Assembly (NCBI RefSeq): GCF_000421565.1
Contig: NZ_ATXG01000005.1
Span: 1-64,000, forward strand
Length of the DNA stretch: 64,000 nucleotides
Source: Agromyces subbeticus DSM 16689
GTDB taxonomy: Bacteria; Actinomycetota; Actinomycetes; Actinomycetales; Microbacteriaceae
Direction: 5' to 3'
Shown here one piece after another: positions 4,871 to 48,059 of the stretch (position 1 is its first letter; each line of letters opens with the position of its first letter). Made by a program: the position numbers and the translations under genes. The notes under the pieces were generated by a model, which was given only the letters and a program-made list of their open reading frames with translations, was not told the DNA's origin and made no database searches.

Positions 4871-5770
4871 ATGTCCATCGAGAAATGGGTCGTCAACCCG
4901 GGCGAGACACGAGTCATCGACCTCGAACTCGTTCGCAAGCTCAAGGTCGGCCTCATCGGCGGCAAGGTCGACGTGATCGCCCACGACGAGCCGGGCGCTC
5001 GCATCGAGATCTCGAACGTCACCGGCAAAGACCTGAAGGTCGAGATCGACGGCGACGCCCTCGAGATCGATCACCCGCAGCTGCGGTGGGACAACTTCGT
5101 CGACGTCTTCAAGGGCTTCATGGGTCAGGCGAAAGCCGACGTCTCGATCCTCGCTCCGCGTCACGTGCTGCTGAAGCTCGGCGTCGTCTCGGGCGATGCG
5201 CTCATCTCGGGTTTCGCGACCGACGCGAAGCTCAGCACCGTCTCGGGCGACCTCGTTCTCGACAACCACGAGGGCGACGTCGAGCTGTCGACCGTCTCTG
5301 GCGAGCTGTCGGCGGGCAACCACACGGGGCGCATCACGGCGCACTCGGTGTCGGGCGACGTCGTCGCCACCGGTGACGTGCGCTCGTTCAACGTCGACAC
5401 GGTGTCGGGCAACATGATCCTCGACGCCTTCGGCACTCCCGACCGCGTCGACACCAACACGGTCGCGGGCGACCTGACCGTGCGCTTCGACGCCGGCACC
5501 GGCGCGCGCTACCGCATCAACACCGTCGGCGGCACCGTGCTGCTCGACGACACGACCATCAAGGGCATGCTCGGCAAGGGCTTCGAGCGCACCACGGGCG
5601 AGCTCTCGGGCACCTGGCTCGACCTCGGCGCGAACAGCGTCTCGGGTTCGATCTCGGTCATGCGCCGCGAGCCCGGCGATCGGGCGACGGATGCCTCGAG
5701 CTCGAGCCGCGACGACGAGTCGGGCACGACGGGCGCCACGAGCACCGCCGACCACGAGGCATCCGCATGA
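4871..5770 (+). CDS. DUF4097-family beta-repeat protein
   Basis: The 299-residue product consists mainly of short repeats of the type (T/S)VSG(D/E/N)(L/V/I) (STVSGDLVLDN, STVSGELSAGN, HSVSGDVVATG, DTVSGNMILDA, NTVAGDLTVRF), the right-handed beta-helix-like pattern of DUF4097 putative adhesins. There is no signal peptide or membrane helix. The C-terminal 40 residues are Ser/Asp/Glu-rich and disordered. ATG 4871 follows AGAAGGAG at six-base spacing. It overlaps the PadR gene by ATGA, so the two are translationally coupled. DUF4097 proteins commonly travel with PadR or envelope-stress regulators; the molecular role is not known. Confidence 0.82.
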   Translation: MSIEKWVVNPGETRVIDLELVRKLKVGLIGGKVDVIAHDEPGARIEISNVTGKDLKVEIDGDALEIDHPQLRWDNFVDVFKGFMGQAKADVSILAPRHVLLKLGVVSGDALISGFATDAKLSTVSGDLVLDNHEGDVELSTVSGELSAGNHTGRITAHSVSGDVVATGDVRSFNVDTVSGNMILDAFGTPDRVDTNTVAGDLTVRFDAGTGARYRINTVGGTVLLDDTTIKGMLGKGFERTTGELSGTWLDLGANSVSGSISVMRREPGDRATDASSSSRDDESGTTGATSTADHEASA

Positions 5771-6411
5771 CCCCGCCGGTCTTCGCCCACGGAAGTCTGC
5801 GCCTCTACCTGCTTGCGCTGCTCGAAGAGCGGCCGCGCCACGGCTACGAGCTGATCCAGGCGCTCTCCGATCGCTTCGGCGGCACCTACAGCCCGAGCGC
5901 CGGCACGATCTACCCCCGTCTCTCGAAGCTCGAGGAAGAGGGCCTGGTCTCCAAGTCGACCGACGGCCGCAAGACCGTCTACGAGATCACGGATGCCGGT
6001 CGCGCCGAGCTCGACGCACGCCGAGGTGAGCTCGACGGCATCGAGAACGAGGTCACCGACTCGGTGCGTCGACTCGCCGACGGTGTGCGCGCCGAGGTGA
6101 ACGGGGCGATGCGCTCGCTCCGCGCCGAGCTCGCGAGCGCGGCTCGCGAGGCCAAGCGGTCGGCGACGAAGGCACCGGCGTCGGCGTCGGGTGGCACCTC
6201 GTCGACCGGCTGGGGCGGTGACGCTCGCGCCGAGTCGAGTCGCGCGGTGCACGAGATCGACCTCGTGCTGAGCGAGTTCCGCCAGCAGCTGCGCACCGAC
6301 CTGCGCACGCATGCGAGCCACGGGCGGGTGACGCCCGAGTCGGTCACCCTGCTGCGCGCTCGCCTCGCCCAGGTGCGAGCCGATGTCATGGCCACGCTCA
6401 CCGACCACTGA
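5767..6411 (+). CDS. PadR-family transcriptional regulator
   Basis: The 214-residue protein has an N-terminal PadR winged helix (LYLLALLEERPRHGYELIQ, then GTIYPRLSKLEEEGLV and the beta-wing GRKTVYEITDAGRAEL), followed by an extended Ala/Ser/Arg-rich, partly helical C-terminal region much longer than the classic short PadR tail. Its start codon overlaps the stop of the DUF4097 gene (ATGA). It probably represses its own operon through the twin palindromes at 4751-4793. The effector is unknown. Confidence 0.87.
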   Translation: MTPPVFAHGSLRLYLLALLEERPRHGYELIQALSDRFGGTYSPSAGTIYPRLSKLEEEGLVSKSTDGRKTVYEITDAGRAELDARRGELDGIENEVTDSVRRLADGVRAEVNGAMRSLRAELASAAREAKRSATKAPASASGGTSSTGWGGDARAESSRAVHEIDLVLSEFRQQLRTDLRTHASHGRVTPESVTLLRARLAQVRADVMATLTDH

Positions 6412-44731: not shown

Positions 44732-44749
44732 AGTGAGTGTACAGTCACT
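44732..44749. promoter_or_regulatory. TetR operator A in the efflux cassette
   Basis: AGTGAGT-GTAC-AGTCACT (44732-44749), three bases before the tetR ATG; flanking bases extend the dyad to ATGAGTGA...TCACTCAT. The candidate -10 TACAGT (44740-44745) lies inside it, with a -35 TTGCGC 18 bp upstream. Confidence 0.82.
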
Positions 44750-44752
44750 CAT

Positions 44753-45364
44753 ATGGCAATCAAGCTCTCCACTGCAGAGGAACGGCGACCGCTCGTCATC
44801 GCCGCCGCGATCACCGCATTCGCCCGCACGGGCTACCGCGGCACCACGGTGGCCGACGTTGCGGCCGAGGCTCGCATCTCGTCGGCATACGTCTTCAAGC
44901 TCTTCCCGAGCAAGGAGCAGCTCTTCGTCGGCGCGCTCGACGCCTGCTACGACCGCGTGGTCGAGTCACTCGGCCACGGGGTGGAACACGCGACGAACCC
45001 CACCCCCGACGGCATCCTCGATTCGATGGGCGGCGCGTACGCCGAGCTCATCGCCGACCGCGACCTGCTGATGCTGCAGGTGCACGCGCAGTCGGCGGTC
45101 GAGGTGCCCGAGATCGGAGCCGCCCTCCGGCGCGGCTACCGGCGCGTGACGGAGTTCGCATCGACGAGGTCGGGCGCGACGGATGCCGCGGTGCAGCGGT
45201 TCATCGCCTTCGGCCAACTCTGCCACCTCGTAGCCACGCTCGGCATCGACGACTCCTCGGAGGCCTGGGCGGCCACGCTCGCCGCGGGCATTCGCCACCC
45301 CGACTTCACCGCGGCGGCGCCCGGCTCCGCGGCCGGCTCGAGTACCGGCGGCAACGCCGCGTGA
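44753..45364 (+). CDS. TetR-family regulator of the MFS cassette
   Basis: The 203-residue protein has a TetR helix-turn-helix (ITAFARTGYRGTTVADVAAEA, then ISSAYVFKLFPSKEQLFVGAL, quoted in parts) and a helical ligand domain. ATG 44753 comes directly after operator A, implying a leaderless, self-repressed transcript. It is followed by the 27-residue gene, and a second copy of the same operator precedes the 48-residue gene and the MFS gene. It therefore probably controls two transcripts of one efflux module. The ligand is likely a drug exported by the MFS pump. Confidence 0.9.
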   Translation: MAIKLSTAEERRPLVIAAAITAFARTGYRGTTVADVAAEARISSAYVFKLFPSKEQLFVGALDACYDRVVESLGHGVEHATNPTPDGILDSMGGAYAELIADRDLLMLQVHAQSAVEVPEIGAALRRGYRRVTEFASTRSGATDAAVQRFIAFGQLCHLVATLGIDDSSEAWAATLAAGIRHPDFTAAAPGSAAGSSTGGNAA

Positions 45365-45404
45365 ACCGACCGCCCGAACCCGTCACGCCGAAGGGAGGTG
45401 CTCC

Positions 45405-45488
45405 ATGAAGTCCGAACGCGTCATGCGCTGGGTCGCCCTGATCCCGCTCGTGCTCCTCGACCTCGCGATGTTCTCCGCCTGGTCGTAG
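45405..45488 (+). CDS. 27-residue single-helix membrane protein
   Basis: The gene reads MKSERVMRWVALIPLVLLD, then LAMFSAWS and stop. A strong AAGGGAGGTG ribosome binding site ends five bases before the ATG. One hydrophobic segment follows a basic N-terminus. It lies 40 bp after tetR and just before a hairpin. Its C-terminal two thirds align with those of the 48-residue protein downstream: (S/T)ERV-x-x-WVA...LAM-x-S-x-W. I know no family for it. Likely a small accessory membrane protein of the efflux cassette. Confidence 0.7.
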   Translation: MKSERVMRWVALIPLVLLDLAMFSAWS

Positions 45489-45505
45489 CCGCCGTCGCCG
45501 CCATC

Positions 45506-45530
45506 GCCCACGCGTCTCGTCGCCGTGGGC
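45506..45530. terminator. Hairpin after the 27-residue gene
   Basis: GCCCACG / CGTGGGC with an 11-nt loop, followed by AATTGTTCC. It probably ends the tetR transcript. Confidence 0.6.
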
Positions 45531-45547
45531 AATTGTTCCACCTCGAT

Positions 45548-45565
45548 AGTGACTGACTAGTCACT
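45548..45565. promoter_or_regulatory. TetR operator B in the efflux cassette
   Basis: AGTGACT-GACT-AGTCACT (45548-45565), 25 bp before the 48-residue gene. It matches operator A in both seven-base arms except for one base, with the same four-base spacer. Confidence 0.82.
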
Positions 45566-45590
45566 CATTACAAACGAATCGGAGTTTTCC

Positions 45591-45737
45591 ATGAACGACA
45601 CGAATCCCGCCACCGCCACCGCCACCGGCCCGACCGCAGCCAGCCCGGGCGGCCACTCGACCGAGCGAGTGCTCTGGTGGGTCGCCTTCGGAGTGCTCAC
45701 CTTCGCCGCACTGGCGATGCTCTCCCTCTGGAACTGA
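45591..45737 (+). CDS. 48-residue single-helix membrane protein
   Basis: The product has a Thr/Ala/Pro/Gly-rich N-terminal half (MNDTNPATATATGP...) and one membrane helix: STERVLWWVAFGVLTF, then AALAMLSLWN and stop. ERV, WVA and LAMxSxW are shared with the 27-residue protein encoded 100 bp upstream. A GGAG lies seven bases before the ATG. It sits between operator B and the MFS gene, with a 58-bp gap to the latter, so it is expected to be co-transcribed with the pump. Function unknown. Confidence 0.72.
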   Translation: MNDTNPATATATGPTAASPGGHSTERVLWWVAFGVLTFAALAMLSLWN

Positions 45738-45795: not shown

Positions 45796-47289
45796 ATGAA
45801 CACCACCCGCCTCTCCGAGGCCCGGTCGCAGCAGCTCGCTGCGACCGGCGCCGCGGCCCCGACCTCGCCCGACCGCACCCACCTGCGCTGGTGGGCCCTC
45901 GGCGCACTCGCACTCGCCCAGTTCCTCGTCGTGCTCGACGCCTCGATCGTGAACATCGCGATCCCGAGCCTCGGCACCGACCTCGGCCTCGACCAGGGCG
46001 CGCTCGCCTGGGTCATCACGGCCTACGTGCTGCCCTTCGGCAGCCTGCTGCTGCTCGGGGGCCGGCTCGCCGACCGATTCGGTCACCGCAAGGTCTTCCT
46101 CGTGGGCACCGTCGGCTTCGTCGCGGCCTCCGTCGCCGCCGGCCTCGCCCCTGACGGCACCTGGCTGCTGGCGTCACGGACCGTGCAGGGTGCATCCGCG
46201 GCCCTGCTCGCGCCCGCGTCGCTCGCACTCGTGACCCGACTCTTCACGACGTCGGCCGACCGCGCCAAGGCGCTCGGCATCTGGGGCGCCGTGGCGGGAA
46301 TCGGCAGTGCCGCAGGCGTGCTCGCGGGCGGACTGCTCACGGGCGCGTTCGGCTGGGAGGCGGTGTTCTTCGTGAACGCACCCATCGGCGCGATCGTGCT
46401 CGTCGCCGTTCCCTTCCTCGTGGCACGAGACCGACGCGGCGCCACGACGACCCTCGACCTGCCCGGTGCCGCAACCGTCACCGCCGGCCTCGTCGCGCTC
46501 GTCGCCGGCCTGTCGAACGCCGAGGCGCTCGGCTTCGGGCATCCGCTCGTCATCGCGCTGCTCGCAGCCGGCGCCGCCCTGCTCGCCGTGTTCGTCGCGA
46601 TCGAGCGCCGCACCACGATGCCGCTCGTACCGATGGAGCTCTTCCGTAATCGGGCGGTCACGGCGGGAAATGTCGTGATGCTGCTCGTCGGCGCCGCCAT
46701 GGTCGCACTGTTCTTCGCACTCTCCGTGTTCCTGCAGGAGCAGCTCGGCTTCGATGCGCTGGCCGCCGGCCTCTCGCAGCTCCCGCTCGCCGGGGCACTC
46801 GTCGTGATCGCCGGCATCGTGCCGCCCTTCGTCGCCCGATTCGGCATCCGCCCCGTGCTGACCGCCTCGCTGCTCGTGCTCACCGGCGGGCTCGCATGGC
46901 TCGCCGCAGCGCCGAGCGGCGCCGAGTTCGTCGTGCACGTGCTCGGCCCGAGCCTCGCCATCGGGGTCGGACTCGGTGGCGCCTTCGTCACGGCGACCCA
47001 GCTCGCGGTCGACGGGGTCGACGGCGGGGAGTCGGGCCTCGCGGGCGGCCTCGTGAACACGAGCCAGCAGATCGGCGGCGCGCTCGGGCTCGCGGTGCTC
47101 GGCGCCGTCAGCGGGGCGGTCTCGGCCGCGCTCGGTGAGAGCGGCGCGAGCGCCGAGGTCGTCGCGGCAGGAGGGTTCCGTGCGATCTTCGTGGGTGCTG
47201 GAGTCGCGGCGCTGCTCGCAGCGGTGGCCGTGGTGACGATTCGCCCGGCGGGCGCCCCCGGTGAGGCCCGCCTGCAGGGTCGCGCCTGA
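45796..47289 (+). CDS. DHA2-family MFS drug exporter (14 helices)
   Basis: The 497-residue transporter has about 14 hydrophobic segments. Family motifs: FLVVLDASIVNIAIPSL in helix 1 (DHA2 motif D1), GGRLADRFGHRK between helices 2 and 3 (motif A) and WGAVAGIGSAAGVLAGG in helix 5 (motif C, antiporter). ATG 45796 follows GAAAGGA. It is the likely pump of the TetR-controlled cassette and exports hydrophobic drugs by proton exchange. It ends at a long palindromic terminator. Confidence 0.92.
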   Translation: MNTTRLSEARSQQLAATGAAAPTSPDRTHLRWWALGALALAQFLVVLDASIVNIAIPSLGTDLGLDQGALAWVITAYVLPFGSLLLLGGRLADRFGHRKVFLVGTVGFVAASVAAGLAPDGTWLLASRTVQGASAALLAPASLALVTRLFTTSADRAKALGIWGAVAGIGSAAGVLAGGLLTGAFGWEAVFFVNAPIGAIVLVAVPFLVARDRRGATTTLDLPGAATVTAGLVALVAGLSNAEALGFGHPLVIALLAAGAALLAVFVAIERRTTMPLVPMELFRNRAVTAGNVVMLLVGAAMVALFFALSVFLQEQLGFDALAAGLSQLPLAGALVVIAGIVPPFVARFGIRPVLTASLLVLTGGLAWLAAAPSGAEFVVHVLGPSLAIGVGLGGAFVTATQLAVDGVDGGESGLAGGLVNTSQQIGGALGLAVLGAVSGAVSAALGESGASAEVVAAGGFRAIFVGAGVAALLAAVAVVTIRPAGAPGEARLQGRA

Positions 47290-47408: not shown

Positions 47409-48059
47409 TCAGCGCGGCGCGGGCTTCGGCCCCTTCGCGTGCGACATGTCGTGGAACGCGGCGAAGGCCTGCGCCGGCGCCGGCATCGGCGTGGTGCCCG
47501 GCCGCGCCCGGAGCCCGTCGAGCACGATCGTGAGCTGGCGCCGCCAGAACGGCAGGTACTCGCGGCCGTACTGGCCGAGCGAGCCGAGCATGTCGACGAG
47601 GATGCCCAGATCGACCGCGGTGACGTCGTCGCGAAGGGCGCCCTCGGACTGCGCCCTCGCCACGAGGCCGTTGACGACCTCCTCGAACTCTGCGCCGGGG
47701 CGATACGAGGGATCGAGTTCGGCGACGCGACGCATCACGGCGGGCAGGAACGGCGATTCGGCCACCCAGGCGCCGAGCCGTTCGACGTAGAGCTCGACGG
47801 ATCGCCATGCCGTCTGGGCGCCGAGGATCTCGGGGGCGAGGTCGTGCAACTCGGCCACGGCAGCGTCGTAGATCTCTCGCACGAGCGCGTCGCGGTTCGC
47901 GAAATGGCGATAGACCGTGCCCGCTCCGACACCGGCACGGGCGGCGAGCTCGTCGAGCGGCGCGTCGATGCCGCGCTCCGCGAAGAGCTGCCGCGCCTCG
48001 TCGAGCAGGCGTGCATGATTCCGCCGCGCATCGCGGCGAGACGAGGTCGACGAGCTCAC
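47409..48059 (-). CDS. TetR-family regulator
   Basis: The 216-residue protein has a TetR helix-turn-helix (LLDEARQLFAERGIDAPLDE, then GVGAGTVYRHFANRDALVRE) and a TetR C-terminal domain of the type found in regulators next to oxidoreductases. GTG 48059 is six bases after TACAGT on the minus strand, so leaderless. It is divergent from kynA across 260 bp. No clear palindrome ties it to kynA, so its target is uncertain. Confidence 0.85.
   Translation of the reverse strand: MSSSTSSRRDARRNHARLLDEARQLFAERGIDAPLDELAARAGVGAGTVYRHFANRDALVREIYDAAVAELHDLAPEILGAQTAWRSVELYVERLGAWVAESPFLPAVMRRVAELDPSYRPGAEFEEVVNGLVARAQSEGALRDDVTAVDLGILVDMLGSLGQYGREYLPFWRRQLTIVLDGLRARPGTTPMPAPAQAFAAFHDMSHAKGPKPAPR

Follow-up and report, generated by a model that had tools for sequence, protein, structure and literature searches.

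A conserved pair of predicted, homologous small proteins, each with one putative membrane helix, encoded beside a TetR regulator and in most cases a DHA2 exporter

The window (the whole 64-kb stretch of Agromyces subbeticus DSM 16689 DNA analysed here) carries, between a tetR gene and the gene for an MFS exporter, two short open reading frames, p27 and p48, that belong together well beyond this genome. The pair is conserved, its two members are homologous, it is linked to a TetR gene in every intact case, and operator-like sites are placed before its genes. Translation of the two frames, their orientation in the membrane and their action as an accessory are what we infer from sequence. The most likely role, in which we have about even confidence, would be to modulate or stabilise the exporter of the cassette, as a non-obligate membrane accessory of two subunits.

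Results

The cassette and its two small genes

The cassette runs in the order tetR, p27, p48 and DHA2 MFS gene, all on the + strand (Table 1). The pump scores 235.1 bits against the EmrB-type DHA2 model TIGR00711, for which the cut-off is 230.2. The full p27 peptide is MKSERVMRWVALIPLVLLDLAMFSAWS, and p48 ends in STERVLWWVAFGVLTFAALAMLSLWN. An earlier note on this DNA had pointed out two frames of 27 and 48 residues with ribosome-binding sites and one hydrophobic segment each, sharing ERV-x-x-WVA and LAM-x-S-x-W. Both frames were found as described, and the common motif ERVxxWVA...LAMxSxW is literally present, as SERVMRWVA...LAMFSAWS in p27 and as TERVLWWVA...LAMLSLWN in p48. The p27 start is preceded by GAAGGGAGGTGCTCC-ATG and that of p48 by CGGAGTTTTCC-ATG.

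Each peptide contains a single hydrophobic segment, with a best 19-residue mean Kyte-Doolittle value of 1.84 for p27 and 2.04 for p48. The AlphaFold2 model of p48, built with eight sequences, consists of one helix that spans residues 22-47; a pLDDT of at least 90 is reached by 20 residues, the N-terminal half is of low confidence, and the mean pLDDT and pTM of the whole model are 73.7 and 0.40, respectively. By length, hydropathy, helix and conservation both peptides fall into the class of conserved proteins of at most about 50 residues with one membrane span. Convergent with the MFS gene, at 47409-48059 on the - strand, lies the gene for a further TetR, which belongs to a different subfamily (TetR_C_43/SbtR-like).

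Table 1. Features of the cassette, in window coordinates
Feature	Position	Strand	Basis
TetR operator O1, core GTGAGTGTACAGTCAC, before tetR and ~650 bases from p27	44733..44748	+	operator pattern, genome scan
tetR, TetR/AcrR-family regulator (TetR_N)	44753..45364	+	family match; orthologues in relatives
p27 ribosome-binding site AAGGGAGG	45391..45398	+	read from sequence
p27, predicted 27-residue single-span membrane protein	45405..45488	+	hydropathy; orthologues in 18 further loci
TetR operator O2, core GTGACTGACTAGTCAC, directly before p48-MFS	45549..45564	+	operator pattern, genome scan
p48 ribosome-binding site GGAG	45581..45584	+	read from sequence
p48, 48-residue p27 homologue; one membrane helix and a low-confidence N-terminal half	45591..45737	+	AlphaFold2, profile comparison, relatives
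Gene for DHA2-type MFS exporter (EmrB/QacA-like)	45796..47289	+	PF07690, E 6e-53; TIGR00711 over cut-off

Homology of p27 and p48

When the profiles of p27 (13 rows) and p48 (14 rows) were compared with hhalign, 26 columns were aligned with a probability of 87.6 and an E-value of 3.5e-6. The p48 profile gave a median of 12.7 bits on 16 real p27 sequences and of 0.6 bits on 4,800 shuffles, 0.04% of which reach the median of the real sequences; the reverse direction is weaker, with 2.2% of shuffles reaching the median. The view of the earlier note that the two are paralogues is borne out by the profile comparison, and the shuffle test speaks for it strongly one way and weakly the other; homology beyond shared hydrophobicity is thus supported at the level of profiles. 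Among 15,476 MFS windows from 36 related proteins, the first transmembrane helix (TM1) of the pump ranks top with both profiles (11.5 and 13.2 bits). An origin of the pair in such a DHA2 helix may be considered, but as no more than a lead, because chance-like matches in whole-genome searches reach ~20 bits (e.g. in G479).

Operators

The operator pattern GTGASTGWMYWGTCAC is a 16-mer built from O1 and O2 themselves and was used with at most one mismatch allowed. It matches only O1 and O2 in the window (0 expected, 100 shuffles) and likewise only these two in the whole 4.30-Mb genome. Since O1 and O2 are the only matches in the genome, a local regulon is suggested, in which O1 would drive tetR-p27 and O2 would drive p48-MFS. 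Each small frame had been proposed to lie downstream of its own copy of one operator. There are indeed two sites, and co-regulation by one operator type is supported, but p27 of the window has no operator of its own and is served from that of tetR. Most relatives differ from the window in that the second operator precedes p27; it lies between p27 and p48 in the window, L133 and L156.

An O1-type element is found 20-59 bases before the aligned tetR start in 48 of 52 loci with a TetR match; in the other four (L162, L202, L211 and L212) the pattern found no operator before tetR. In this survey, as in the trees below, L125 is represented by its second TetR (11640-11101), which outscored the one adjoining the MFS gene. 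L120 and L125 have an apparent FAD/GMC-type oxidoreductase gene, identified by eye, divergent from tetR (from the second tetR in L125), and in L120 an additional operator-like site lies between the two genes.

In Nocardia farcinica and on two Deinococcus plasmids (L159-L161), a TetR of this family (57-64% identical) is encoded behind an operator of the type seen here, and the gene that comes after tetR is for a medium-chain dehydrogenase/reductase, assigned from the annotation in Deinococcus and by eye in Nocardia. By this comparison, regulator and operator are conserved across phyla and the target genes differ.

Search for relatives

Searching the 60 genomes of the genus with p48 produced one further convincing match, in G008, which carries both genes; weaker matches (E 0.0025 and above) were left out. 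With two-row models, 398 genomes of the family yielded seven p27 matches at E ≤3.5e-7 (10 weak matches, E 0.003-0.05, left out) and nine p48 matches at E ≤2.6e-6, one of them spurious (matches over 2.6e-6 left out). A pattern scan of a genome collection of 84,980 species found nine loci in Labedella, Microbacterium, Curtobacterium and a Frigoribacterium MAG, three of which we treated as identical to G092, G272 and G332. Scans for p27 in 396 order, 200 other-family and 246 class genomes added G642, G782, G766, G932, G837 and G1169, as well as a broken p27 in G1192; weak matches were left out (G479 and G653 in the order; G852 and G653; G1026, G1111, G1054 and G1050). A plasmid search with the p27 consensus gave no match.

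Both frames are intact and side by side in 19 loci, the window and 18 further (L117, L109, L111, L112, L113, L114, L119, L120, L121, L122, L123, L125, L132, L133, L134, L153, L154 and L156), which fall under four family codes (f1, f7, f9 and f38). Labedella phragmitis and Microbacterium ulmi are among the pair-bearing species. Outside this set are G272, where p27 is frameshifted, G157, with p48 only, and G1192, a relic. In Labedella populi (L110/L126) a short deletion, as compared with Labedella phragmitis, puts p27 out of frame, and p48 and the pump match as in the latter species.

Several candidates were rejected. The p48-like match in G377 (L116) is part of a longer ORF that by eye looks pilus-assembly-like, and neither TetR nor MFS is present there; the stretches surrounding the p27-like matches in G1178 (L157) and G1078 (L158) contain no TetR or MFS match; and the degenerate p27 of G1192 (L155) has an in-frame stop and no TetR match.

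Conservation and selection

The p27 consensus is MKNEITMRWVALAPLALIAxAMFSQWx, with R8, W9, L12, P14, F23 and W26 invariant in 16 rows; p48 has the core EKTAWWIxFGVLTLxIVxMLGLWN (17 rows). Both alignments are without the rows from L153, L154 and L156, which were found later. In a placement test on sequence pairs hand-chosen by the analyst, non-synonymous changes were fewer than expected in 5 of 7 p27 and 4 of 7 p48 pairs (P <0.05, uncorrected). The strongest case is G255/G299, with 6 synonymous and 1 non-synonymous changes in p27 (P 0.0004) and 6 and 0 in p48 (P 0.0016). The four comparisons with the window's own copies were non-significant (P 0.12-0.20), as was p48 of L119/L120 (P 0.44).

Pooled pN/pS is 0.53 for p27, 0.78 for p48, 0.40 for TetR and 0.34 for MFS. 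The shifted frames of p27 give 0.94 and 1.64, against 0.53 in the true frame, and those of p48 give 0.91 and 1.08, close to the true frame; a ratio above 1 is common among the p48 pairs. Synonymous change is probably held down by high GC, and the ratios are therefore blunt. There is good support from these tests for p27, and moderate support for p48, being a gene under purifying selection. Lack of conservation of either frame in relatives had been named as one observation that would count against the pair; both frames are intact in 19 loci, and most of the close pairs tested show purifying selection.

What adjoins the pair

The pair had been suspected always to sit beside a TetR and a DHA2 MFS gene. 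This held for the regulator: an orthologue of the window's TetR lies beside the intact pair in 19/19 loci, in all of which the gene following p27 is p48. It held for the pump in part: a DHA2 gene comes directly after p48 in 15/19 and stands elsewhere in the locus in one more (16/19 in total). With any MFS exporter counted the number is 17/19, directly after p48 in 16 of them, including a different MFS in G837 (L154). The pair thus tracks regulator and operator more faithfully than it tracks the pump.

The arrangement varies. In Curtobacterium ISL-83 (L125) p27-p48 form a unit of their own with operator-like sites, which is followed by tetR-MFS. L134 (G766) reads tetR, operator, NAD-epimerase, p27, p48, and L156 (G1169) reads tetR, p27, operator, p48, NAD-epimerase. 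As in the window, p27 comes right after tetR in L156, where it overlaps the tetR stop codon. Neither MFS query matched in the 11 kb of L134 or the 15 kb of L156. The latter has no ORF with at least four hydrophobic segments and no exporter-like ORF; the single polytopic ORF of L134 lies upstream of tetR and looks CPBP-like by eye, and the top DHA2 match genome-wide in G766 has an identity of just 36%. In L133 an SRPBCC/polyketide-cyclase-like protein is encoded between tetR and p27 (5367-6005, - strand); its hydrophobic C-terminal tail ends in LALSLWD, and the likeness of this end (LSLWD) to that of p48 was not significant in profile scoring.

Regulator and pump without the pair

A TetR profile found 33 matches at E ≤1e-40 in 234 family genomes, 21 of them strong (E ≤4.5e-76); 7 of the 12 weaker ones were left out of the census. 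By profile search of 13,365 six-frame segments, the 21 strong loci comprise 4 with an intact pair, 2 with a partial one and 15 with none. The 15 pair-free loci contain a DHA2 gene in 13 cases (convergent in L199, divergent in L207, a partial match in L204) and a medium-chain dehydrogenase in 2. In the genus (60 genomes), 9 genomes have a strong TetR orthologue; the pump is present in 8 of these and the pair in 2, and 6 of the 8 pump loci are pair-free. The window's own TetR and pump cluster with pair-free loci of the same genus (support 99/91 and 99/95).

The earlier description of p27 and p48 as dedicated partners of the pump is too narrow by these counts: 3 of 19 intact pairs are without DHA2, and 13 of the 19 DHA2-bearing loci among the 21 strong TetR orthologues are without the pair. 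Presence of the pair (the 19 intact loci plus L110 and L115) requires 7 changes on the TetR tree, at least 4 of them on well-supported branches, and 6 on the MFS tree, at least 5 of them on such branches. Gain, loss or transfer of the pair has evidently happened more than once, and the pump can do without it. As most TetR-DHA2 loci and the window's nearest relatives are pair-free, the pump evidently works without the pair, which would not be an essential pump subunit.

Where the window has p27, L050 and L051 retain a ribosome-binding site, and a GTG start that overlaps the stop codon of tetR opens a frame of just eight codons. This may be a relic of p27 loss, and is only suggestive. In L135 (G042), of the same genus, the syntenic tetR is flanked by VOC-family/tetR2 and tryptophan dioxygenase genes and the pair is absent; no orthologous pump adjoins it, and a weaker MFS match (27-41%) lies ~4 kb on. 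A different membrane protein of ~120 residues is encoded after an operator-like site in L205 (3719-4078), where it precedes MFS, and in L201 (3721-4077), where it precedes the dehydrogenase; the L205 copy has a weak resemblance to DUF6220.

Known families and systems

No Pfam family matched 7 p27 and 8 p48 members up to E 1. NCBIfam gave none for p27 and no curated cut-off match for p48; five of its families were each matched by one of the 8 p48 members (best YmiA, E 0.008). Among open-licence PMC papers we found no description of such a pair, no described small partner of DHA2 exporters and no use of 'MFS transporter small subunit'; the accessible portion of PMC10903887 contains nothing on Microbacteriaceae, MFS or TetR.

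AcrZ, with which the pair had been compared, is a single-helix protein of 49 residues that modulates the substrate range of the E. coli RND pump AcrB (PMC7267776 and PMC10710835, in the parts available). It shares with p27 and p48 the concept of a small single-helix membrane protein that modulates a transporter, a modulation that for our pair is presumed, but its partner is an RND rather than an MFS pump and it is one protein, not a homologous pair. The comparison stands as a conceptual analogy and not as a family relation. To our knowledge, AcrZ has no local TetR cassette.

Mg2+ importers have tiny proteins of their own, namely MgtR (30 aa), MgtU (28 aa) and MgtS (31 aa); MgtU stabilises MgtB and MgtR promotes degradation (PMC10710835, in the part available). 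Like p27 and p48, these are made with or for a transporter, and the opposition of MgtU and MgtR is a good model for a pair; they are likened here by description rather than sequence and differ in serving P-type ATPase importers of enterobacteria under other regulation. Regulator, palindromic operator and exporter are common to the TetR-controlled DHA2 systems of the EmrB/QacA and LmrA/LmrB types. We know of no such small-protein pair in the named systems. Paired SMR transporters (EbrAB, YkkCD, MdtIJ) also consist of two homologous small membrane proteins encoded together, but these have ~110 residues and four helices each and are transporters in themselves; p27 and p48 match no Pfam family.

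Discussion

In the mechanism that we propose, a hydrophobic toxicant would bind the local TetR and free O1 and O2, whereupon tetR, p27, p48 and the main gene would be made together. Both peptides would insert as single-span inner-membrane proteins with the charged N-terminus inside and the outer end capped by tryptophan. Nearly always found together, they would form one functional unit in the membrane, probably a hetero-oligomer. As a non-obligate accessory, this unit would stabilise or tune the exporter of the cassette, mostly a DHA2 MFS and once another MFS, and could be re-used in cassettes with an enzyme as main gene. We consider modulation or stabilisation of the exporter the most likely role because 17/19 loci encode an exporter along with the pair. 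More broadly and more tentatively, p27 and p48 may be a portable two-peptide module, in which one-helix homologues of ~27 and ~45 residues under one TetR/operator system are combined with different detoxification genes (DHA2 pump, other MFS, epimerase) and act as a membrane unit.

Modulation of the exporter has a rival in a pump-independent membrane effector under TetR control: the two peptides would assemble to shield or change the membrane, or to sense the toxicant, and the pump, epimerase and SRPBCC genes would be parallel outputs of the regulon. Linkage to TetR does exceed linkage to DHA2 (19/19 against 16/19), L134 and L156 have an epimerase and no exporter found in the locus, and G766 lacks a close pump orthologue; unrelated membrane proteins follow the second operator in the pair-free L201 and L205, and in L133 this place is taken by an SRPBCC protein whose C-terminal tail is hydrophobic. 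Because of the two loci without a found exporter such an effector is a serious rival, but we think it somewhat unlikely, given that an MFS exporter still accompanies 17/19 pairs, directly after p48 in 16. The constant presence of the regulator would also fit membrane-anchored co-factors that tether or titrate TetR or present its ligand, in the manner of a tiny anti-repressor: every intact pair from the p27/p48 searches adjoins one TetR orthologue group, and p27 immediately follows tetR in the window and L156, in the latter overlapping its stop codon. However, linkage to TetR is expected of any regulon member, 15 of 21 TetR orthologues have neither gene, the conserved residues lie mainly in the membrane span and p27 has few residues in the cytoplasm, which makes such feedback improbable.

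A hydrophobic homologous pair of 27-50 residues adjoining an exporter also recalls membrane-damaging toxins or two-peptide bacteriocins for which the MFS would be the exporter. We regard this as very improbable: no leader or immunity gene came to notice, the charge of p27 and p48 is low, unlike that of most such peptides, the context is repressor-controlled detoxification, and two loci have no exporter found. We reject the idea that the frames are leader peptides, translational attenuators or spurious ORFs whose amino-acid sequence is irrelevant. They are short and located in the space before the pump gene, spurious ORFs are common at high GC, and the codon test was non-significant for the window's copies; against this, amino-acid conservation extends across families, most close pairs tested are under purifying selection, and the pair is a unit separate from tetR-MFS in Curtobacterium and follows an enzyme gene in L134.

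Tuning of transporters by small membrane proteins is known chiefly from enterobacteria (AcrZ, MgtS/R/U); here the pair is conserved and actinobacterial, with frames short enough for annotation to miss. The natural contrasts between loci with and without it, within the same genus and with the same TetR and pump, make an effect on drug export directly testable in environmental Microbacteriaceae.
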